Positions 3,500-61,903 of a DNA stretch of 64,000 nucleotides are shown in pieces. Both the position numbers and the translations under genes were made by a program. Below the pieces are notes generated by a model that was given only the letters and a program-made list of their open reading frames with translations, ran no database searches and was not told the DNA's origin. The stretch is from a virus. The first letter of the stretch is position 1; the number at the start of each line of letters is the position of its first letter. The stretch covers positions 62,001 to 126,000 of IMG/VR virus record IMGVR_UViG_3300035070_002626; one strand, 5' to 3'.

Positions 3500-3680
3500 T
3501 TAGTATATCCTTCATTACGCTGGTTGCTGTATCAGTAAAGAGGCGGGGCGCAACTGCATGTATAACAAGAGCGGGTACTAACAACTGTAGTCTTACAGCA
3601 ATTTTGAGTGCATGGCCCATATGTTCTAAGCCAGTTTTGCCTGTTTCTTCTAAATGTAGTTTGCATTGTTTACTAAACAT
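3486..3680 (-). CDS. DUF6356-like membrane protein
   Basis: 64 residues from ATG 3680, which overlaps the stop of the 716-aa gene (TAATG). HLEETGKTGLEHMGHALKIA followed by a hydrophobic stretch (VRLQLLVPALVIHAVAPRLF) matches the small DUF6356 type, with one membrane-embedded helix pair. Its C-terminus MKDILNENQ mimics the targeting motif only because it overlaps the next gene in another frame. Confidence 0.65.
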   Translation of the reverse strand: MFSKQCKLHLEETGKTGLEHMGHALKIAVRLQLLVPALVIHAVAPRLFTDTATSVMKDILNENQ

Positions 3681-5830
3681 TATTTCTTTTTTCCACTCTT
3701 CATATTGGCACACCAGTGATACATCTTAGCTCGCTCGCCTGAATATTTCTTTGCACGAGCACGTAAATCAGTTACACTACCGTTGCAACTTGCACCTGCT
3801 GCTTTTACACGACCCGGTTTGCTTTTGCCTTTTACTTTACCGTCTGCAAAGTTTTCATCCATTTTGGCTAATTTTGCAGCAATAGCCATTTGTCTACGCT
3901 TTGCTTTACTTTTACCTTTGAATTGCGGAGCATCACTTTGGTAGAAATCATCAATAACATCACCCATTGGGGTACGCTTTGTAATCTTCTCATTAATGCT
4001 TTCTGTGAAAAATGGGCCACTAAGTTCTTGGTCATCCTGGCTTAACATTGCTTTGTTAATATCAGCAATAATGTCTGGAGTTAAATGTCTTGCACGGTTA
4101 ACAGTGTTACTGTTAAAAAATAAATGTACTTCAACAGGAATGTCGCCAAATACTTGTTGTATGGCAATCATTCTGCTGCGACCTTCATGCCCAATGATTT
4201 CTGCTGTACTGCCTTCTGTGTAACTAATAATAAGAAAAGGTGCTCCAATTGCACCACCATTTTTGATATGATCAACTACTTTATCAACTGCCGGAACACC
4301 ACGTCTGCTTTCTGCTAATTTCAAAAACACACTTGGTTTCATCTTAACACGCATGCCAAAATAGTCAACTTCTTGGTTGTTAGGAACAGCACCCCAACCT
4401 TCTTTGTTGTCTATATTTACATCTTCGTTAAATGCTGTATCTGTTGCAGTCTTTGCACTCTTACCGTCAGGATGCTTAGGATTGATACCTACAACTTCGC
4501 CATTGATTAAGTCTGAGATGTTTGATGCTTTGCCAATTCTATCTAATAGCTGATGTAGTTTGTCATTCGCATCGTAGTTACCACTTTCATAGCCACTCTT
4601 ACCACGAACTTCTGTACGCTTGCCAGTTGCGGTATCAGTAATGTTTAACACCATCATATCAGCATCACGTTCTAGTTGTAGCTTGTAACCTTCGTTAACA
4701 CTTTCATTAAGTTTGTATTCGTATGTATCAGTGCCTGTTTTTTCTAACCATTCAAACTTGTCGAAAAACTTCCGGTTAGTTACTTTATATACTGTCAACG
4801 GTAATTTGTTTTGATCTGCATATGATTTTATTGCATTCATAACTTTACCGCCTATGCCCGCACCTCGTTCTGACGTTGAGATTTGTGACATTAAGATTTT
4901 TTCTGGGCGATAACTCTTTGCTGCATCTAATAGTATATGTCCAAAGTCCCCTTTAAGCATATACGTGCCACCACCACCGATCATTTCTGTTGTTGACCAT
5001 GGGACCCCAACTTTACCCCAACTAGTCCAACTAGTTGCACCAATAGCTTTACCGATATGTTTGATTAATGGGTAATCATTATTTAATGGCCACCATTTCT
5101 TATCAAATTCGATATCTACGTATCCATTTCGGATAGCGTCAAATTCTTCTTTAGATACTTCGTTGACACTTTCATTAATGCTTTCTTCGTTTACGTTGCT
5201 AGATCTAATTGCATCATACTTTGCTTGTAAACTTTCTACTAACCCTAGATTATACGCCTTGTTAGCACTGGTGTTTTTAGCTGCTGTTGCATGCAGTAGT
5301 GGAGGACTGCCCTTTTTGTCAATCTTCATACCTAGTTTAGCAGCCTGGCGCTGTGTTTCACCTGGCTTAACGTCAACAGTGAGTGCACTACTAAATCGAG
5401 GATCTTTTGCTTGTGCTTTAGTTGGAATGTAGCCACTTGCTTCTTCAACTTTAGCTTTGGGAATATCGTTGCGATGTTCAAGTTCGCTAGCATCTACTAC
5501 AATTGCTGGCAAACTTTCAAGCCCAGCTTTTTTTGCAGCGGCAAATCTGTGGTGACCGTCAAGAATCATATAACCATCAGTGGTACGGGTTACAACAATA
5601 GGATCACCGTTCCACATGTTTGCTTTCATTTTAACAGCAATGCTTAAAACTTGATCTCCATGCTCTTTGGCATTCAACTTGTCTGTGGATTCAAATCCGT
5701 ATAACTGAGACAATGGTATATCTTTGTCAGCAGAACGCTTCATAAATTCATCAGGTATGTCGGCACCCCTGTAACCAGGGTTGTGCCATAATGTTATTTT
5801 TTCTTTAGATTCAAACCATGATGCTCGCAT
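3680..5830 (-). CDS. Multi-module protein: ParB-like, GNAT-like, second ParB-like and basic modules with protease-site linkers
   Basis: 716 residues in modules. About 1-125: ParB/sulfiredoxin-like nuclease fold (DPIVVTRTTDGYMILDGHHR, motif 90-98). About 131-200: a marine-phage module with TKAQAKDPRFSSALTVDVKP. About 225-365: GNAT-like acetyltransferase with the acetyl-CoA loop ERGAGIGGKVMNAI (321-334) and a C-terminal NRKFFDKF. About 480-580: second ParB-like domain (GHEGRSRMIAIQQVFGDIPV). About 611-716: basic KITKRTPMGDVIDDFY module and a DUF5872-related Cys/Lys tail. The modules are separated by short (I/L/V)NE-rich linkers (213-224, 374-380, 467-472, 611-614) that look like T4 gp21-type cleavage sites. 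A late box (CATAAATA) ends 5 nt before this ATG with no Shine-Dalgarno. Inferred: a head-packaged polyprotein cut into separate effectors. Confidence 0.8.
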   Translation of the reverse strand: MRASWFESKEKITLWHNPGYRGADIPDEFMKRSADKDIPLSQLYGFESTDKLNAKEHGDQVLSIAVKMKANMWNGDPIVVTRTTDGYMILDGHHRFAAAKKAGLESLPAIVVDASELEHRNDIPKAKVEEASGYIPTKAQAKDPRFSSALTVDVKPGETQRQAAKLGMKIDKKGSPPLLHATAAKNTSANKAYNLGLVESLQAKYDAIRSSNVNEESINESVNEVSKEEFDAIRNGYVDIEFDKKWWPLNNDYPLIKHIGKAIGATSWTSWGKVGVPWSTTEMIGGGGTYMLKGDFGHILLDAAKSYRPEKILMSQISTSERGAGIGGKVMNAIKSYADQNKLPLTVYKVTNRKFFDKFEWLEKTGTDTYEYKLNESVNEGYKLQLERDADMMVLNITDTATGKRTEVRGKSGYESGNYDANDKLHQLLDRIGKASNISDLINGEVVGINPKHPDGKSAKTATDTAFNEDVNIDNKEGWGAVPNNQEVDYFGMRVKMKPSVFLKLAESRRGVPAVDKVVDHIKNGGAIGAPFLIISYTEGSTAEIIGHEGRSRMIAIQQVFGDIPVEVHLFFNSNTVNRARHLTPDIIADINKAMLSQDDQELSGPFFTESINEKITKRTPMGDVIDDFYQSDAPQFKGKSKAKRRQMAIAAKLAKMDENFADGKVKGKSKPGRVKAAGASCNGSVTDLRARAKKYSGERAKMYHWCANMKSGKKK
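3989..4000 (-). other. Prohead-protease-like linker site (SINE, residues 611-614)
   Basis: TESINEK at the junction between the second ParB-like module and the basic C-terminal module matches the (L/I)xE rule of T4 gp21 protease. Confidence 0.45.
4415..4432 (-). other. Linker AFNEDVN (residues 467-472) before the second ParB-like module
   Basis: Short NE-containing linker at a predicted domain boundary. Weaker match to (L/I/V)xE than the other linkers because phenylalanine precedes NE. Confidence 0.3.
4691..4711 (-). other. Prohead-protease-like linker LNESVNE (residues 374-380)
   Basis: Two overlapping NE sites (LNE and VNE) at the end of the GNAT-like module, followed by a new beta-rich module. 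Confidence 0.45.
5159..5194 (-). other. Triple protease-like linker VNEESINESVNE (residues 213-224)
   Basis: Three (V/I)NE sites in twelve residues separate the N-terminal ParB-like region from the GNAT-like module. The same LNE/INE/VNE tripeptides end the N-terminal targeting sequences of neighbouring genes. Confidence 0.5.
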
Positions 5831-36321: not shown

Positions 36322-36606
36322 TCAAGCAGCAAAGCTTTCCCCGCAGCCGCAACTGGCTGTTGCATTTGGATTAGATACTTTTAAATAACTACCACCTAGT
36401 TCTTCAACATAATCTACTGTACAACCAAACACAAACATTTCTGCCATTGGGTCTAGCCATAGATGATCCACTGTTGCTTCCTTGTTAGTTACACCCCATT
36501 CGTATTGAAAGCCACTGCACCCACCACCTTTCACAGACAGCGATACATTTGGTTTGCCAACTTTTTTCATGTATTGTTTAGCGGATTCAGTAAGAGTTAT
36601 CACCAT
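36322..36606 (-). CDS. A-type Fe-S carrier (IscA/HesB-like)
   Basis: 94 residues. The three conserved ligands are C30 (GGGCSGF), C86 and C88 (CGCGE). Such proteins hold and hand over [Fe-S] clusters. HesB-like genes are known in T4-like cyanophages. Its neighbour SOD and the phage ferredoxin and SufE suggest a Fe-S supply theme. A late-type box TTTAAATA lies 5 nt before the ATG. Confidence 0.88.
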   Translation of the reverse strand: MVITLTESAKQYMKKVGKPNVSLSVKGGGCSGFQYEWGVTNKEATVDHLWLDPMAEMFVFGCTVDYVEELGGSYLKVSNPNATASCGCGESFAA

Positions 36607-37070: not shown

Positions 37071-37238
37071 TTAGTCTTCTTTCTGCCAAATAGCCCAAGC
37101 ACCGTATGCAATAGCAGCATATGCAGCTAATTTAGCAAATGGCCCTGCAATCAAAATGACCAAGCCGACTCCGATTAGTACAGCACCATCCCAAGAAGTA
37201 CGCTCATCTACTCTACTTTTAATCCATCGTCTAATCAT
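37071..37238 (-). CDS. 55-aa single/double-pass membrane protein
   Basis: ATG 37238 behind GGGAG. MIRRWIKSRVDERTSWDGAV, then LIGVGLVILIAGPFAKLAAY and AAIAYGAWAIWQKED: basic N-terminus and two close hydrophobic segments. Conserved among T4-like marine phages; role unknown. Overlaps the SOD stop. Confidence 0.7.
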   Translation of the reverse strand: MIRRWIKSRVDERTSWDGAVLIGVGLVILIAGPFAKLAAYAAIAYGAWAIWQKED

Positions 37239-37795
37239 TATAATCTCCCGTTGATTGCATTCCAATTGATGATCTTCATCATATTGTTTATATACTTTTT
37301 CTTAGCGTCTTTGGCAGGCACATAATCCATAAACGAATGCTCCCACATGTCGATTGGTAATAGTATATCTGTTTTGTATGATTGGTTAGGCGTAGTTTTA
37401 ATCTTGCCATTCTTAGCAAGGTACACCCAGCCGCTGCCTTGAAGTGTCATTGCAACACGCAACATTTCTTTTTTAAAATTGTCGTAGTCTTCGTGGTGTG
37501 CGTCGATAAATTCTTTAATTGTCCCGGTAGGTCTGTTTGCGCCTTTGGGTGCTTGTAACTGTTGCCAAAATAAGTTGTGAAGTTTTGCTCCACCGTAATT
37601 AAATTTAGGATCGCCTTCGTTGTTGTTGTAACGATTTACATATCCTTTGGTCAACACATTGTAATGGTAGTCAACATTTTCTTTAGAAAGCACAGGAGCT
37701 AATGCACCACTGTCGTACGGCAGTGCATCGGCTGCTAATTTCTCTTCTTGTTTGTCTTCGGTTAGTTGAATGTATTTTCTAATTTCTTGTTGCAT
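37238..37795 (-). CDS. Fe/Mn superoxide dismutase-like protein with targeting-like N-terminus
   Basis: 185 residues from ATG 37795. All four SOD metal ligands are visible: H44 (VDYHYN), H73 (GAKLHNLFW), D149 and H153 (PIDMWEH). Also present are GSGWVYL and LPYDSGALAP. The Asn-rich insert is longer than in bacterial SODs. The first 13 residues MQQEIRKYIQLTE resemble the T4 capsid-targeting leader ending in an LTE protease site. ATG follows an AATAAATA late box by 5 nt. It would convert superoxide to peroxide, possibly delivered in the virion. Confidence 0.85.
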   Translation of the reverse strand: MQQEIRKYIQLTEDKQEEKLAADALPYDSGALAPVLSKENVDYHYNVLTKGYVNRYNNNEGDPKFNYGGAKLHNLFWQQLQAPKGANRPTGTIKEFIDAHHEDYDNFKKEMLRVAMTLQGSGWVYLAKNGKIKTTPNQSYKTDILLPIDMWEHSFMDYVPAKDAKKKYINNMMKIINWNAINGRL

Positions 37796-37800
37796 GTACA

Positions 37801-37808
37801 TATTTATT
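37801..37808 (-). promoter_or_regulatory. Late promoter box AATAAATA, 5 nt before ATG
   Basis: AATAAATA-TGTAC-ATG(37795). No Shine-Dalgarno; predicted leaderless. Confidence 0.5.
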
Positions 37809-39899: not shown

Positions 39900-40061
39900 T
39901 TATACTCTATATTCTTGGTTTAATCTATAGTTACAATACGCACTCCATCCATATTCGTATGCAGCATATGCAACTATGAATCCAACATAAGGCAGAAACA
40001 GCACAGTCCATATCAAATCTGCAAACGCAAATGCTATAGCATAATCATACCAGCGTATCAT
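39900..40061 (-). CDS. 53-aa membrane protein
   Basis: ATG 40061 overlaps the ferredoxin stop (ATGA). [20 protein letters not shown] then [15 protein letters not shown] form one or two membrane passes. Coupled to the ferredoxin, but no family known. Confidence 0.6.
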
Positions 40062-40378
40062 CGTATTAGTAGCTCAATCTTATTTGGAACGCCTTTCCAT
40101 TCAGCAGCGTCTGCTGGCGATTCTCCAACTTCGGTAATCTGATTGTCTTTCCATGCTTCTGCAAGTTCGGCATTTAAATTGATCCAGAATGGTGTGCTTT
40201 CGTCGTCGGCTACAATCGCATCAACTGGGCACTCAGGTACGCACACTGCACAATCAATGCACTCATCAGGATTAATTACCAGCATGTTTTCGCCTTCGTA
40301 AAAACAGTCTACTGGGCATACTGCTACACAATCTTGGTGTTTGCATTTGATACATTCTTCTTCTACAACATATGTCAT
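40058..40378 (-). CDS. fdxA: 7Fe (3Fe-4S/4Fe-4S) ferredoxin, FdxA type
   Basis: 106 residues, same length as Azotobacter vinelandii ferredoxin I and alphaproteobacterial FdxA. N-terminal [17 protein letters not shown] (C9, C12, C17, C21) is the 3Fe-4S region, and [12 protein letters not shown] (C40, C43, C46, C50) the 4Fe-4S site. The C-terminal extension ([15 protein letters not shown]) is the family hallmark. It carries electrons; likely partners are host reductases. Very host-like; an unusual phage auxiliary gene. Confidence 0.92.
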
Positions 40379-47160: not shown

Positions 47161-48699
47161 ATGTATTTTCTTGACTTATATATTATAGTATTAATGTTAG
47201 GAGTGTTCTATGGATTTTTTGTAGGATTAATACCAGTTGCTGGTGCAACCACAGGGCTGATTGCTGTGTACAGTTTTGTTACGTATTTCCATGATCCTTA
47301 CATGCTAGTAGTGTTTACAACCGCAGTAGTTGTTACTAGCAGCATCGGTGATACATTTTGCGGTGTTGTAATGAACGTTCCGGGAGCAGGTGGCGCAGCG
47401 GCTACTATGGTGGATGGATTTCCAATGAGTAGACGGGGACAAGCGGCACGAGCACTTAGTGCAGCAATTAGTACAAGTTGGGTAAACGGTTTGATTTGGG
47501 GATTGCTGGTATTTTTGTTTCTACCATATTATACTAAAATTGTACTGTATTTTGGCACTACTGAAATGTTTGCATTTTTGTTGTTTGCAATGACATGTGT
47601 TATTTTTATTAGCAGCAAATACTGGATCCGTGGCATCTTTGCGCTTGTAGCGGGGGTTGTGTTAGGACTAGTGGGTATGGACCCAGACACCGCAGCACAG
47701 CGTTGGATTACAGTAATACCAAACTTTGACTTTGACACATGGCGTGTTTACTTTACTGACTGGGACTATATCGAAAATGGAATTCAAATGATTCCAGTGA
47801 TGGCAGGTGTACTAGCATTTCCAGAACTAGTAAGTGCATACAGAATGAAAGCCACAAAGGTTAGTTTAACTAAAGGTGATATTCTCAACCAGTTGTGGCA
47901 AGGTATCAAGGACACTTGGAAATATCGTTGGGACGGACTGCGTGGTGGATTCATCGGCGGTTTTGTAGGACTAGTGCCTGGCATCGGCGGCAACATTGCA
48001 GATTGGTTTGCATATAGTCAAACAGTTGCACTGTCACGCAAAAAAACAAAAGGTGAGGTTGACGATTACAATGGCGAAGGGTACCCAGTAGGACAAGGTA
48101 ATGTACAAGGTGTAATTGGATGCGAAGGTGCCAACAATGCACAAAAGGCTACCAGTTATGTTCCTACTATTTTGTTTGGTATTCCGGGTGCACCGTTTGA
48201 AGTTATTGTAATGGGCTTGCTTATGTATGTTGGGCTTGAATTAGGTAGCCCAGCAGTGCTAGCAGACGGCGTGTTCTTTGACCACTTACTGAGCAGTTAT
48301 CTGTGGAGCTTGATAATTATTCTGCCAATTAGTTACGGATTCATTCGTTATGCAGTTTACATTACCAATATTCCATTCAAATATTACTTCTGGCCTATTA
48401 TGGCAAGTCTAGTATGGACTACATCACAGTACACAGGATTCATTGATGATTATCTTATGTTTGCTATGTGTTGCGTGGCTGGACTAGGTATGAAGTATTT
48501 TAAATTCAGTCGTATAAGTTTCCTAATTGGATTTATCTTATCACATAGACTTGAAGCAAGTTGGGTACAATTCAACACATTCGGTTACGGATGGGAAGAT
48601 TTATTACTTGAACCCTTCCCAGCAGCATTTATTGCACTAGCAATAGCGGCTGCAATATGGGGAATATTTTTTAACAAAGCAAAAATTGATTTCGTATAG
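47161..48699 (+). CDS. tctA: Tripartite tricarboxylate transporter large membrane subunit
   Basis: 512 residues, near the usual 500. About twelve hydrophobic segments and conserved TctA signatures: VGLIPVAGATTGLIAVYSF, MNVPGAGGAAATMVDGFPMS, GFVGLVPGIGGNIADWFAYS, and FGIPGAPFEVIVMG. It moves carboxylates such as citrate or tartrate with a TctC binding protein, driven by an ion gradient. The TctB small subunit is missing here, so it may use the host's or be reduced. Followed 9 bases later by tctC. Confidence 0.9.
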   Translation: MYFLDLYIIVLMLGVFYGFFVGLIPVAGATTGLIAVYSFVTYFHDPYMLVVFTTAVVVTSSIGDTFCGVVMNVPGAGGAAATMVDGFPMSRRGQAARALSAAISTSWVNGLIWGLLVFLFLPYYTKIVLYFGTTEMFAFLLFAMTCVIFISSKYWIRGIFALVAGVVLGLVGMDPDTAAQRWITVIPNFDFDTWRVYFTDWDYIENGIQMIPVMAGVLAFPELVSAYRMKATKVSLTKGDILNQLWQGIKDTWKYRWDGLRGGFIGGFVGLVPGIGGNIADWFAYSQTVALSRKKTKGEVDDYNGEGYPVGQGNVQGVIGCEGANNAQKATSYVPTILFGIPGAPFEVIVMGLLMYVGLELGSPAVLADGVFFDHLLSSYLWSLIIILPISYGFIRYAVYITNIPFKYYFWPIMASLVWTTSQYTGFIDDYLMFAMCCVAGLGMKYFKFSRISFLIGFILSHRLEASWVQFNTFGYGWEDLLLEPFPAAFIALAIAAAIWGIFFNKAKIDFV

Positions 48700-55485: not shown

Positions 55486-55848
55486 ATGAAAAACGTATTA
55501 TTAACACTTGCAATCGCAGCAACATTTTCTACACCTGCTATAGCCGACAAGGCATTTAAAAAATGTGTCTCTTGTCACAGTATCGAAGAAGGTGGCAAAA
55601 ATAAAGTTGGGCCAAACCTTTGGAATATCATGAATCGCGGCACCGGAACTGCTGACTTTAAATACAGCAAAAAGTTTGCTACCTGGGCCGAAGAGAATCC
55701 ACAGTGGACCCCGGAGCTCATGGATGCGTGGCTAACTAACTCTAAGAAATTAGTTAAAGGCACCAAGATGAACTTCAAGGAGCGCAAAGAAGCCAAACGT
55801 GCTGACATTATTGATTATCTGACATCTATGGGTGAACAAGTTGATTAA
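55486..55848 (+). CDS. Periplasmic class I cytochrome c
   Basis: 120 residues. Signal peptide (LLTLAIAATFSTPAIAD), the haem site CVSCH (C27, C30, H31) and the distal ligand M95 (KGTKMNFKE). About 100 mature residues as in cytochrome c2-type proteins. It would accept host Ccm-attached haem and shuttle electrons to a terminal oxidase. Start behind AGGA. A phage-encoded cytochrome c is rare. Confidence 0.9.
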   Translation: MKNVLLTLAIAATFSTPAIADKAFKKCVSCHSIEEGGKNKVGPNLWNIMNRGTGTADFKYSKKFATWAEENPQWTPELMDAWLTNSKKLVKGTKMNFKERKEAKRADIIDYLTSMGEQVD

Positions 55849-56245
55849 AACACTTGTCAATAAAATCCCAGAGTTCTGTATGTCACATTGGTTGCTGAGG
55901 ATCCCCTTGGCAATCATTTTTATTCAACAAGGCTTAGACAAGATCCCAGTTGACATAGAAGTAGCAGAAGCATACGACCTACCTTATCTTGTGTGGTGGA
56001 CTGTTGCCTATGGTGAACTCGGTGCTGGAGTAGGGTTACTTGTTAGCGGAGCACTTATAAAGTATCTTAAAGAAATCAGCGATCTGTTAACACGATTTGC
56101 TGGCATCACTATTGCTAGTATTATGACTGGTGTTATTTGGATGGCAGAACCCGAAAGCGTGTCGGAAGTGCTACTAAATGACCATTTCCACGTTCTACTT
56201 TGGGTAGGTGGTATGTTCTTTGCACTTAGAGGCAACAGAACTTGA
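55832..56245 (+). CDS. DoxX-like membrane protein
   Basis: 137 residues with four membrane helices (LLRIPLAIIFIQQGLDKIP, LVWWTVAYGELGAGVGLLVS, FAGITIASIMTGVIWM). Starts with GTG, overlapping the cytochrome stop by 17 bases. DoxX relatives act in quinone, thiosulfate or redox functions. Pairing with cytochrome c suggests an electron-transfer module. Confidence 0.75.
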   Translation: MNKLIKTLVNKIPEFCMSHWLLRIPLAIIFIQQGLDKIPVDIEVAEAYDLPYLVWWTVAYGELGAGVGLLVSGALIKYLKEISDLLTRFAGITIASIMTGVIWMAEPESVSEVLLNDHFHVLLWVGGMFFALRGNRT

Positions 56246-56640
56246 ACAAAATTCAACAATGGGCAGACGAGTTGTCAATCTTCGACGATGTAATGGATCA
56301 GTATCAGTTGTTGATTGACATGGCCAAAAAACCTACATCACTGCCTGCGGAACTGAGAACAGATGATAAACTTGTAAGCGGGTGTATCAGCAGTATTTGG
56401 GTAGATGTAGGCACAGTTGATAATAAAACTAAAATTTATTACGACAGTGATGCTATGATTACAAAAGGTGTGACACATGTTGTCTGTGATTGTTTCAATG
56501 ATTTGCCACTAGACGAAGCCAAAAAGATTCAGCGTGGTGACTTTGAAGCATTATCATTAGAAGGCATCCTAAGCAGCAACAGACGCAACGGACTTGCAAG
56601 TTTGATTAGCACATTACAAACAAAGGTAGCAGCATTATAA
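56242..56640 (+). CDS. sufE: SufE Fe-S sulfur-acceptor protein
   Basis: 132 residues starting with TTG at 56242 and overlapping the DoxX-like stop. The active Cys48 lies in LVSGCISSIWV, with GDFEALSLEGILSSNRRNGL at the end, both SufE hallmarks. SufE takes sulfur from SufS cysteine desulfurase and passes it to SufB. Together with the phage IscA-type gene and ferredoxin this suggests boosted Fe-S assembly. Confidence 0.88.
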   Translation: MNKIQQWADELSIFDDVMDQYQLLIDMAKKPTSLPAELRTDDKLVSGCISSIWVDVGTVDNKTKIYYDSDAMITKGVTHVVCDCFNDLPLDEAKKIQRGDFEALSLEGILSSNRRNGLASLISTLQTKVAAL

Positions 56641-57779
56641 TGAATGACAAAATTTATCAAATCTTAAATAGAGAAGCAGCACGACAAGAATCGACAATAG
56701 AACTTATTGCAAGTGAAAACTTTGCTAGTCAAGCAGTTATGGATTTAGCAGGCAGTGTATTTACAAACAAGTATGCAGAAGGATATCCAGGCAAGCGTTA
56801 CTACAACGGTTGCGAGCATATGGATGAGATTGAAACACTTGCGATTGACACATTGTGTAACCTGTACGGAGCAAAGTTTGCAAACGTACAGCCACACTCA
56901 GGTGCTAATGCTAACACAGCAGTATATCAAGCACTAATGAAACCAGGTGATAAGATCCTTGGTATGGACCTAGCAAGCGGCGGCCATTTGTCGCACGGTG
57001 CTCCTGTTAATATTTCAGGTAAAGTTTATGAAGCTCATTCGTATGGCGTAAACAAAGAAGGTTGGTTAGATTATGAAAATATTCGTGATATAGCCGAGCG
57101 TGTTAAACCAAAAATGATTGTTGCCGGTGCTAGTGCTTATCCACGTGAAGTTGACTGGGCACAAATGCGCTATATTGCAAACGCTGTGGGTGCTTATCTA
57201 TTGGTTGACATGGCACATTATTCAGGATTGATTGCAGGCGGAGTGTATCCAAATCCAGTGCCCTATGCTGATGTAGTGACTAGTACAACACATAAAACAC
57301 TGCGTGGTCCACGTGGCGGTATTATCTTATGGAACAACGAAGAACTTACACGTAAGATTAATAGTGCTATCTTCCCTGGCACACAAGGTGGCCCGCTTAT
57401 GCACATCATTGCTGCCAAGGCACAGTGCTTTATTGAAGCAGACACACAAGACTATAAAAACTACGCACAGGCGGTTGTACGCAATGCTAAGGCTATGTGT
57501 GATGTGTTTAGACAGCGTGATTTGCCAGTACAAACAGGCGGCACTGACAGTCATATTATTCTTATGGATCTAAGTAACAGCAAGTATAGTGGCAGACAAG
57601 CCGCAGACTTACTAGAAGAAAATGGTATCACAGTAAACAAGAACGGTATACCAAATGATCCACGTAGCTTTGTAGAAACAAGTGGCATTCGTATTGGCAC
57701 AGCTGCCGAAACTACTCGTGGGCATGATGAAACGTGGTTTAGAAAATTAGCACATAAGATTGCAGATATACTAGAATGA
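56640..57779 (+). CDS. glyA: Serine hydroxymethyltransferase
   Basis: 379 residues. Conserved ESTIELIASENFAS start, YAEGYPGKRYYNGCEHMDEIE, PLP lysine K219 in VTSTTHKTLRGPRGG, and ETSGIRIGTAAETTRG. Makes glycine and 5,10-methylene-THF from serine for dTMP synthesis and methylation. About 40 residues shorter than bacterial GlyA (420), missing parts of the C-terminal domain and some loops but with intact active-site motifs. TAATG coupling to sufE. Confidence 0.92.
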   Translation: MNDKIYQILNREAARQESTIELIASENFASQAVMDLAGSVFTNKYAEGYPGKRYYNGCEHMDEIETLAIDTLCNLYGAKFANVQPHSGANANTAVYQALMKPGDKILGMDLASGGHLSHGAPVNISGKVYEAHSYGVNKEGWLDYENIRDIAERVKPKMIVAGASAYPREVDWAQMRYIANAVGAYLLVDMAHYSGLIAGGVYPNPVPYADVVTSTTHKTLRGPRGGIILWNNEELTRKINSAIFPGTQGGPLMHIIAAKAQCFIEADTQDYKNYAQAVVRNAKAMCDVFRQRDLPVQTGGTDSHIILMDLSNSKYSGRQAADLLEENGITVNKNGIPNDPRSFVETSGIRIGTAAETTRGHDETWFRKLAHKIADILE

Positions 57780-58478: not shown

Positions 58479-60017
58479 ATGCGAGAATATTTAGATATTA
58501 TCACCGAAGGGGTGGGCCTAGCGAACCGTAAACCGGGAGAAAAATTTGCAAATCCTCAGGGAGATATATTAACGTTCCAAAGTTTAGACTTTTTTCCTGG
58601 AAAAGACTCATATGAGGATGAAGAAACAACCAACACTGCACTACTAGATTTGGGCGCACAGTTGGGAATTGACCCTCAAGAAATACAATGGGCAAATGCA
58701 CAAGGATCAAACAAAGCGTTTGGTATAGCAAGGTTTGTAGACGGTGCAGGCAAGGACTACTTAGTAGGTAGATGGTTTCAAAAAATTAATGCTAACAAAA
58801 CATTAAACAGATTTCCAAATGATTTGCCAGGCGGTTTTAAATATCAAAGTAAAGCGGCTGTTAAAGAAAATTCTGGATACAAACCTACCGAAATTCTTAC
58901 ACAATTACAGAATCAGACACCTGCTAGCATCGTAAAACAAATTGTTGCAAAATTTGGCGCAGACTCAGACGAAGTACGTGCTACTAATGCATTCATGGAA
59001 CAAGATTTTCCAATGAACATTCCACGTGGCGAAATGAATGCCGAAGCATTTACAAATTACTTTTGTGAAATACTACAGCCAATGGCACTTATTATGGGCA
59101 AAAATGTAGGCGGAAATGCAGACGAAGCAGAACAGATTTTCTTTGGTGGATCTGGATACAGTGATTGCACAATTAGTTTTAATGCAGGAACCACAGATGG
59201 ATTATTTGATAGCTTGTTAGTCAACCCTCAAGGCAAACAAATTAAGATATCAAGTAAAGCCGCTGCCGGGGCAAATGCTAGTATTGTTAACTTGCTGAAA
59301 AGTGTACAAGACATGCGCACTGCACCTGCTGGACAGAAATTGTTAAAACAATATGCTGAAGCAGTTAGTATTATGGAAATTATCAAGAACGGCGGACACA
59401 CAGATGGATGCCTAAATCTTGCCATTGCACTAGACTTTATCTCGCCAGAAGAAAAGCAACAAGTAAAATCATTAGCCGGTATGGGACCAGATGACGATGT
59501 AATGAGTGTGATTACCAGCGATAAACTACAAGGTCTATACAATGGTCGTAATGCTCGCGACATGAGCCGCATTATTCCAATCGAACACATGTTGGCTTCT
59601 ATTGCATACCCAATTGCTGAAATTGTAAACACCGAAACAGACTTTGGCGAAGCAGCAAGTGCAATATTAAATCATAGTGCATTGGTACAGATGTACACAC
59701 TGAGTAGTAATAGCGACGACACTATTAACGTCAATGATTTCCAATGTGTGTATCCAAGTAACACAGTTACTGGTGTGCTTATGAGAGCTGATAAAACATA
59801 TATGAGTACACAAGGCAAGGGAAACTTTGTGTTTAAAATTCTCAAAAATGGTGCCAGTGATGCTGAAACAGAAATTGCTGATGTTAGCACAGATATTCCA
59901 AATACACAGCCAGTAAAGAAAAAGGCTGCGCCTGGACAAACTACTAGTAATGTCAAAGCACAGCCTCGGGGAGGGGACCTGGATAACAAGTCCCTAGGGC
60001 GTGAACGTAGAACTTAG
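58479..60017 (+). CDS. Large protein with capsid-targeting-like N-terminus
   Basis: 512 residues. MREYLDIITEGVG lines up with the T4 internal-protein leader MKTYQEFIAEA: aromatic at 4, hydrophobic at 7-8, Glu at 10, and an ITE cleavage rule. No known domain was identified; there are helix-rich segments, several Asn/Gly loops (SKAAAGANASIVNLL), and a Lys/Gln-rich disordered tail (from about 480). T4 proteins with this leader are packaged in the head and injected, e.g. IPI, an anti-restriction protein. Inferred injected factor. Confidence 0.7.
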   Translation: MREYLDIITEGVGLANRKPGEKFANPQGDILTFQSLDFFPGKDSYEDEETTNTALLDLGAQLGIDPQEIQWANAQGSNKAFGIARFVDGAGKDYLVGRWFQKINANKTLNRFPNDLPGGFKYQSKAAVKENSGYKPTEILTQLQNQTPASIVKQIVAKFGADSDEVRATNAFMEQDFPMNIPRGEMNAEAFTNYFCEILQPMALIMGKNVGGNADEAEQIFFGGSGYSDCTISFNAGTTDGLFDSLLVNPQGKQIKISSKAAAGANASIVNLLKSVQDMRTAPAGQKLLKQYAEAVSIMEIIKNGGHTDGCLNLAIALDFISPEEKQQVKSLAGMGPDDDVMSVITSDKLQGLYNGRNARDMSRIIPIEHMLASIAYPIAEIVNTETDFGEAASAILNHSALVQMYTLSSNSDDTINVNDFQCVYPSNTVTGVLMRADKTYMSTQGKGNFVFKILKNGASDAETEIADVSTDIPNTQPVKKKAAPGQTTSNVKAQPRGGDLDNKSLGRERRT

Positions 60018-61072: not shown

Positions 61073-61710
61073 TAGTACAATGCCATAGTTTTACGAATGT
61101 CCGCTGCTATTTCAGCGTCATCTTCACTCCAAACATACTTGGCAACATACAAGCGCCCATCGTCGATGACTTTATCACTTTTTTTGCGTACACCAACTAA
61201 ACGTCCAGATGCTACAATAGTAGTAATTGTATCAGCAACAGTTTCATCTAGTCGTGTAGCAATACGTCGACTTGTGTTGTCTTCTTTAGTGCCGTGTGCT
61301 TCATCATCTTGTACTTCGGCTGTTAGTTGTTCGCTGGTAAAATTATTTTCGATACCATTAAGTGCATTGTCTCGAGAGTTTTCAATACTCTTAGCAAGAA
61401 TCTTTACACTTCGATTGCTGTCAATTTGTTCGCCAAACACAAACTTAACCAACTTTTCTTTAGCATCTGCTTCAGCAAGTACAGCTGGATTTGATTTCCA
61501 AGCCGCTGCGACTCCATACACTTCGATGCTTTTTAAATTGCCGAATACTGTGTAGTTCAACACAACACCCTGGTCTTTGTATTCTGTTGTGATCACTTGA
61601 TCTGCAACAGGTGTTTCGTTGCCTTGAGCTTGTCTCATGCCCAATGGACTTGATGAACAGGCACTTAACAATGTACCTGCCAACATCATAGTAATTAATG
61701 TGCGCTTCAT
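61072..61710 (-). CDS. LPP20-like outer-membrane lipoprotein
   Basis: 212 residues. Lipobox LAGTLLSAC, then a domain with IEVYGVAAAWKSNPAVLAEA and DAKEKLVKFVFGEQI, the pattern of LPP20-type lipoproteins. ATGA overlap with the small gene upstream and TAGTG coupling to the FlgT-like gene. Periplasmic/outer-membrane complex inferred. Confidence 0.72.
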   Translation of the reverse strand: MKRTLITMMLAGTLLSACSSSPLGMRQAQGNETPVADQVITTEYKDQGVVLNYTVFGNLKSIEVYGVAAAWKSNPAVLAEADAKEKLVKFVFGEQIDSNRSVKILAKSIENSRDNALNGIENNFTSEQLTAEVQDDEAHGTKEDNTSRRIATRLDETVADTITTIVASGRLVGVRKKSDKVIDDGRLYVAKYVWSEDDAEIAADIRKTMALY

Positions 61711-61874
61711 GATTTGCCTCCAAATTCTTGACGCTTATCCCAACTGCGCACTAAAGCCCACTCGCCACTGTTACTAAGTTTAGCGTGGCGAGCACGTGAC
61801 TCTTCTTCTGTCAATCCTGACATGTAAAAGTAGTCTTTGTTCTCACCGTAGTTTCTTGCTTCAATTGCCCACAT
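61707..61874 (-). CDS. 55-aa early protein
   Basis: ATG 61874 with AAGGA. MWAIEARNYGENKDYFYMSG then EESRARHAKLSNSGEWALVR. A small mixed protein leading the LPP20/FlgT-like operon. Unknown. Confidence 0.65.
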   Translation of the reverse strand: MWAIEARNYGENKDYFYMSGLTEEESRARHAKLSNSGEWALVRSWDKRQEFGGKS

Positions 61875-61903
61875 GGGATATCCTTTCGTTTAACTTACAA
61901 TAC

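Follow-up and report, generated by a model that had tools for sequence, protein, structure and literature searches.

A phage superoxide dismutase with a putative T4-type capsid-targeting leader

The superoxide dismutase (SOD) encoded in the window, which is the whole 64000-nucleotide stretch of DNA analysed here (bases 62001–126000 of a 299910-base virus record), probably travels inside the virus particle, judging from its sequence and those of its relatives. The best explanation, and one that we consider quite likely, is that the enzyme is packaged into the phage head by a T4-type targeting leader. SOD would then be head cargo of a T4-like jumbo phage, transcribed late and probably as a leaderless mRNA. 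Its residues 1–13 would fold as an amphipathic helix and attach the protein to the prohead core, in the manner of the capsid-targeting sequence (CTS) of the T4 internal proteins. A gp21-type protease of the phage would then cut after Glu13 (LTE/D, where the slash marks the predicted cut), so that the DNA-filled head would contain Mn/Fe-SOD in free form. The more speculative part of the proposal is that SOD may be ejected with the DNA and remove superoxide in the newly infected cell, or do so in the virion. We infer the core binding, cleavage and packaging of SOD, and its injection with protection of the entering genome is plausible; SOD dimers are stable, and for this reason the passage of the enzyme through the tail tube is not assured. 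As a tentative generalization, to which we give somewhat less than an even chance, a widespread family of T4-like jumbo phages may load active SOD into its heads via a cleavable leader, inject it with the genome and so disarm superoxide before phage genes are expressed.

The SOD gene and its enzyme

The minus-strand ORF 37801..37238 of the window encodes an Fe/Mn superoxide dismutase. It contains two in-frame ATG codons 6 nt apart, at 37801 and 37795, the outer of which would add MY to the protein. The second is the better start, as the relatives align from 37795 and the promoter spacing points there, and the ligand numbering below counts from it. The features of the locus are:

37238..37795, minus strand: SOD coding sequence, 185 amino acids plus stop, from the preferred ATG at 37795 (from relatives and promoter spacing)
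37757..37795, minus strand: proposed capsid-targeting leader MQQEIRKYIQLTE, residues 1–13, predicted cut E13/D14 (phi-x-E in relatives; low-confidence helix outside the core in AlphaFold2)
37241..37723, minus strand: SOD core, L25 (LPY) to the C-terminus, Mn/Fe-SOD fold with a shortened alpha-hairpin (sequence match, Pfam, AlphaFold2 and Foldseek)
37664..37666, minus strand: metal ligand H44
37577..37579, minus strand: metal ligand H73
37349..37351, minus strand: metal ligand D149
37337..37339, minus strand: metal ligand H153
37801..37808, minus strand: T4-type late promoter octamer AATAAATA, 5 nt before ATG 37795 (spacing peak; kept in relatives)

The two Pfam matches (Sod_Fe_C, 1.5e-19; Sod_Fe_N, 1.6e-9) were both over the cut-offs, and the sequence matches solved Fe/Mn-SODs. 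The AlphaFold2 model had a mean pLDDT of 90 and a pTM of 0.84, and a Foldseek comparison with solved Mn/Fe-SODs gave TM values of 0.76–0.80. All four metal ligands, described as intact in the initial annotation, are indeed invariant in an alignment of 16 relatives. The Gly four residues before H73 and Gln119 resemble those of Mn-type enzymes. The alpha-hairpin is short, with a distance of 29 residues between the first and second ligands, compared with approximately 47 in E. coli FeSOD.

At the position of the HXXXHH motif described for SodFM enzymes (PMC10172142), the window SOD reads HYNVLT, with Leu in place of the second His, and the same Leu was present in every one of the 53 sequences from the second set of relatives (see below) in which the position could be read. 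Because the last His of the motif is missing from SodFM4 too (PMC10172142), the loss marks a variant rather than exclusion from the Fe/Mn SODs. Seven cellular SODs were fetched; six of them keep the His and none has an N-terminal leader of this kind. The phage enzyme is like cellular SodFM in its fold, its four ligands and its C-terminal Gln (Q119), but differs in the HXXXHH position, in an alpha-hairpin approximately 18 residues shorter and in the added leader. These three differences suggest that the phage SOD is a lineage of its own and not a recent capture.

The N-terminal leader and its conservation

The leader, M1 to E13, ends in LTE, and its junction reads MQQEIRKYIQLTE/D with Asp at P1'. 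In the AlphaFold2 model the pLDDT was 54–60 for the leader, below 50 for residues 10–16 and mostly above 90 for the core, with the drop in confidence extending over residues 1–20. The initial annotation had named a leader forming part of the enzyme core as evidence against its reading; the model places the leader outside the core, suggesting that it is a separate module.

Profile scans of IMG/VR gave 491 phage SOD relatives in a first scan and at least 579 in a second, the two sets overlapping to some degree so that the counts are not additive. In the best loci of both scans we read 122 distinct leaders whose start could be resolved, and 119 of them carry phi-x-E at the expected place (63/65 in the first set and 56/57 in the second). 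For a further 17 loci of the second set the script resolved no start, and most of these visibly carry such a leader. The leaders are 8–16 residues long and their bodies vary widely, as in MKLEQITE/S, MYNFIKYVSLNE/G, MQKTLLDLKQLIIE/A, MRATEFLTE/S and MDLDYLKKLAGIGE/T. Among 94 unique anchored leaders, P3 was Leu or Ile in 88 and P1' was Ala, Ser, Gly or Thr in 84 (about 89%); P1 and P3 are fixed by the anchoring on phi-x-E, whereas the bias at P1' is not. When the residues of the first 65 leaders were shuffled (2000 rounds), phi-x-E was found in a mean of 29.6 and a maximum of 41 leaders, compared with 63 observed, a comparison that does not amount to a formal P value because related sequences are not independent. 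A conserved phi-x-E followed by a small residue, with a changing helix body, resembles the pattern of a protease site more than that of a binding surface. The case for a capsid-targeting leader rests on the SOD family itself.

One relative, the SOD of Vibrio phage 2.275.O, has no N-terminal leader although the phage encodes an S77 protease. The C-terminal tail of this SOD (L040:3968-4537), MLDESVNIRHLINFISK, resembles a leader with an LDE/S site. Its relatives were sought in IMG/VR to see whether such a tail replaces the leader, and none were found there.

A homologue in Pseudomonas phage PA5oct

Pseudomonas phage PA5oct encodes an SOD homologue, EST35_0261, which is 33% identical with the window SOD and has the leader MNDSIKKYISIAE/A. 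The annotated sodB products of two other Pseudomonas phages, MIJ3 and Callisto, are likewise about 33% identical. EST35_0261 has the same kind of leader (IAE/A) as the window SOD and, in addition, its GenBank record combines the label ‘hypothetical protein’ with the note ‘ESI-MS/MS’. Structural proteomics of PA5oct is reported to have been carried out, in a study cited in PMC6950013, and the note most likely stems from that work. The same note is found on 93 of the 386 PA5oct CDSs compared, which are mostly structural but include ribonucleotide reductase, FtsH and DNA ligase, and carry-over from the lysate is a possible source of the noted proteins. Because so many CDSs are noted, enzymes such as ribonucleotide reductase and FtsH among them, the note on EST35_0261 is suggestive only as virion evidence. 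Within PA5oct, a position matrix (PSSM) of the SOD leaders did not separate the MS-noted proteins from the others, and broad phi-x-E regular expressions showed no enrichment in the MS-noted proteins. We found no study of EST35_0261 itself.

The source phage and its prohead protease

The whole record encodes a Gp23 major capsid protein (2.8e-100) and, at 245293–245730 of the record, a gp21-type prohead protease (Peptidase_S77, PF03420; E-value 8.4e-27). With a T4-type prohead protease and a Gp23 capsid protein encoded, the source virus is, by gene content, a T4-like jumbo phage. An S77 protease was also present in all five of the SOD-bearing records above 240 kb that were tested.

A strict form of the leader motif, chosen after examples had been seen, occurred at 8/38 N-termini versus 9/171 internal sites of the whole record (P=0.004), and the N-terminal enrichment of this post hoc motif in PA5oct gave P=0.006 for the MS-noted and P=0.047 for the other proteins. 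The stricter motif is thus only moderately enriched at N-termini, and these genome-wide leader tests are weak. Loose phi-x-E motifs are common in N-termini by chance, and the IscA-like neighbour of the window SOD, an ordinary protein, also begins MVITLTES. Three SOD-bearing records have a leader of the type MDLERLKxLAGI, and in none of them did it recur on another protein; in other contigs it is also found on an unrelated short protein.

A late promoter next to the start codon

The octamer AATAAATA differs by a single base from the T4 late consensus TATAAATA, and the 5-nt gap between it and the SOD ATG contains no Shine–Dalgarno sequence. In the whole record, 33 NATAAATA sites lie 0–39 nt before the ATG of an ORF, and eight of these are at exactly 5 nt, well above an even spread. 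These sites fall into two spacing classes, the eight at 5 nt and most of the others at 14–36 nt before the ATG; the 5-nt class is predicted to represent leaderless mRNAs. Most relatives have a late-promoter-like site 3–8 nt before the SOD ATG. With the geometry of T4 late promoters, transcription would start at or beside the SOD ATG. Given this geometry and the position of AATAAATA, SOD mRNA is predicted to be late and leaderless, and the late, possibly leaderless promoter proposed earlier is consistent with the 5-nt distance, the spacing peak and the retention of the site in most relatives. Among neighbouring genes, leaderless late promoters were not associated with leaders (2/15 versus 8/128, P=0.28).

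Taken together, the length of the leader, its phi-x-E site and variable body, the protease and capsid protein, the promoter, the structural model and the MS note on the tagged PA5oct homologue fit the earlier claim that the first 13 residues mimic the leader of an internal protein, and the capsid-targeting reading is well supported by comparison.

Alternative explanations

SOD may instead be a cytoplasmic late enzyme that remains in the infected cell, where it protects replication or assembly, with its N-terminal helix used for stability or for docking to a phage or host protein. The late promoter, the intact fold and ligands and the leaderless SOD of Vibrio phage 2.275.O are all compatible with this, and packaging is itself a prediction for this phage. 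However, the retention of Glu, of Leu/Ile at P3 and of a small P1' while the helix body changes, together with the MS note on the PA5oct homologue, speaks against a purely cytoplasmic role, which we consider improbable. A functionless chance extension at the N-terminus would be in line with the frequency of phi-x-E in N-termini and with the start of the IscA-like neighbour, but such an extension would hardly retain phi-x-E, with a bias at P1', in all but three of the 122 distinct leaders resolved, while being absent from all seven cellular SODs fetched. It is disfavoured by this family-wide conservation and seems very improbable indeed.

Packaging by the leader, our preferred explanation, includes a sub-case in which SOD is not ejected and acts inside the capsid, protecting the stored genome or the capsid against superoxide in sunlit water. 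The leader and the protease argue for it as they do for packaging in general, and the family occurs in many IMG/VR records. On the other hand, IPI* of T4, an internal protein with a tag of this kind, enters the cell by injection and works there (PMC3012670), and a role confined to the capsid is possible but doubtful.

Comparison with known systems

The CTSs of T4 are propeptides of 10–20 residues that are removed after Glu and can carry foreign proteins into heads (PMC5694885; PMC3012670), and the window leader, with 13 residues ending in LTE, is of this size and ending. T4 ipII and ipIII begin MKTYQEFIAE/A. The window SOD resembles IPI, IPII, IPIII and Alt of T4 in having a short N-terminal leader that ends in Glu, usually with a small P1' residue, and a gp21-type protease in the genome. 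It differs from them in that a metalloenzyme from an ancient family of cellular proteins is the cargo, in that the leader body is not that of T4 and in that packaging is a prediction.

Chlorovirus PBCV-1 packages a Cu/Zn SOD in its virion (PMC7019647). This enzyme (A245R) is, like the phage SOD, virus-encoded and the product of a late gene, the packaging of the phage SOD being a prediction; unlike the phage SOD, it is a Cu/Zn enzyme of a eukaryotic algal virus. The initial annotation had held virion-packaged phage SOD to be undescribed. For phages this stands in so far as no description of an SOD with a capsid-targeting leader was found in the open-access literature; viral packaging of an SOD is already known from PBCV-1, however, and the MS note on the PA5oct homologue was already in GenBank.

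T4-type targeting leaders are known mainly on small anti-restriction proteins and Alt. If the proposal is true, the conservation of such a tagged antioxidant enzyme would imply that phages bring general metabolic protection with them at entry, and that oxidative conditions, whether in the cell just infected or in the water, are a real selective force. The combination of a phi-x-E/A, S, G or T leader with a prohead protease may also serve as a sequence-based guide to other packaged enzymes.

Other genes of the phage and its relatives

A 716-residue protein with a ParB_N match (window 3680–5830, minus strand; MRASWFESKE...) contains several internal sites of the N-E-S type, has an ATG that follows a late promoter at a distance of 5 nt, and is possibly another packaged and processed protein. 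At window 58479–60014 (plus strand), a 512-residue protein with no Pfam match starts with a CTS-like leader, MREYLDIITE/G. In a relative (L094:1872 and L094:3004), a protein near SOD begins MHLRQIFEA and the SOD itself MKIRQLFEA, nearly the same leader; the former protein has a nucleotidyltransferase-like motif and no Pfam match.

Redox and iron genes are present at window 36325–36606, 40058–40378 and 55486–56637 and at 61446–61886 of the whole record, and comprise an IscA-like Fe–S protein, ferredoxin, cytochrome c, DoxX and SufE; immediately beyond the window there is a gene with a ferritin domain (Dps-like). The phage also encodes a TctA tricarboxylate transporter and a serine hydroxymethyltransferase (window 47161–48696 and 56640–57776 respectively, both on the plus strand).
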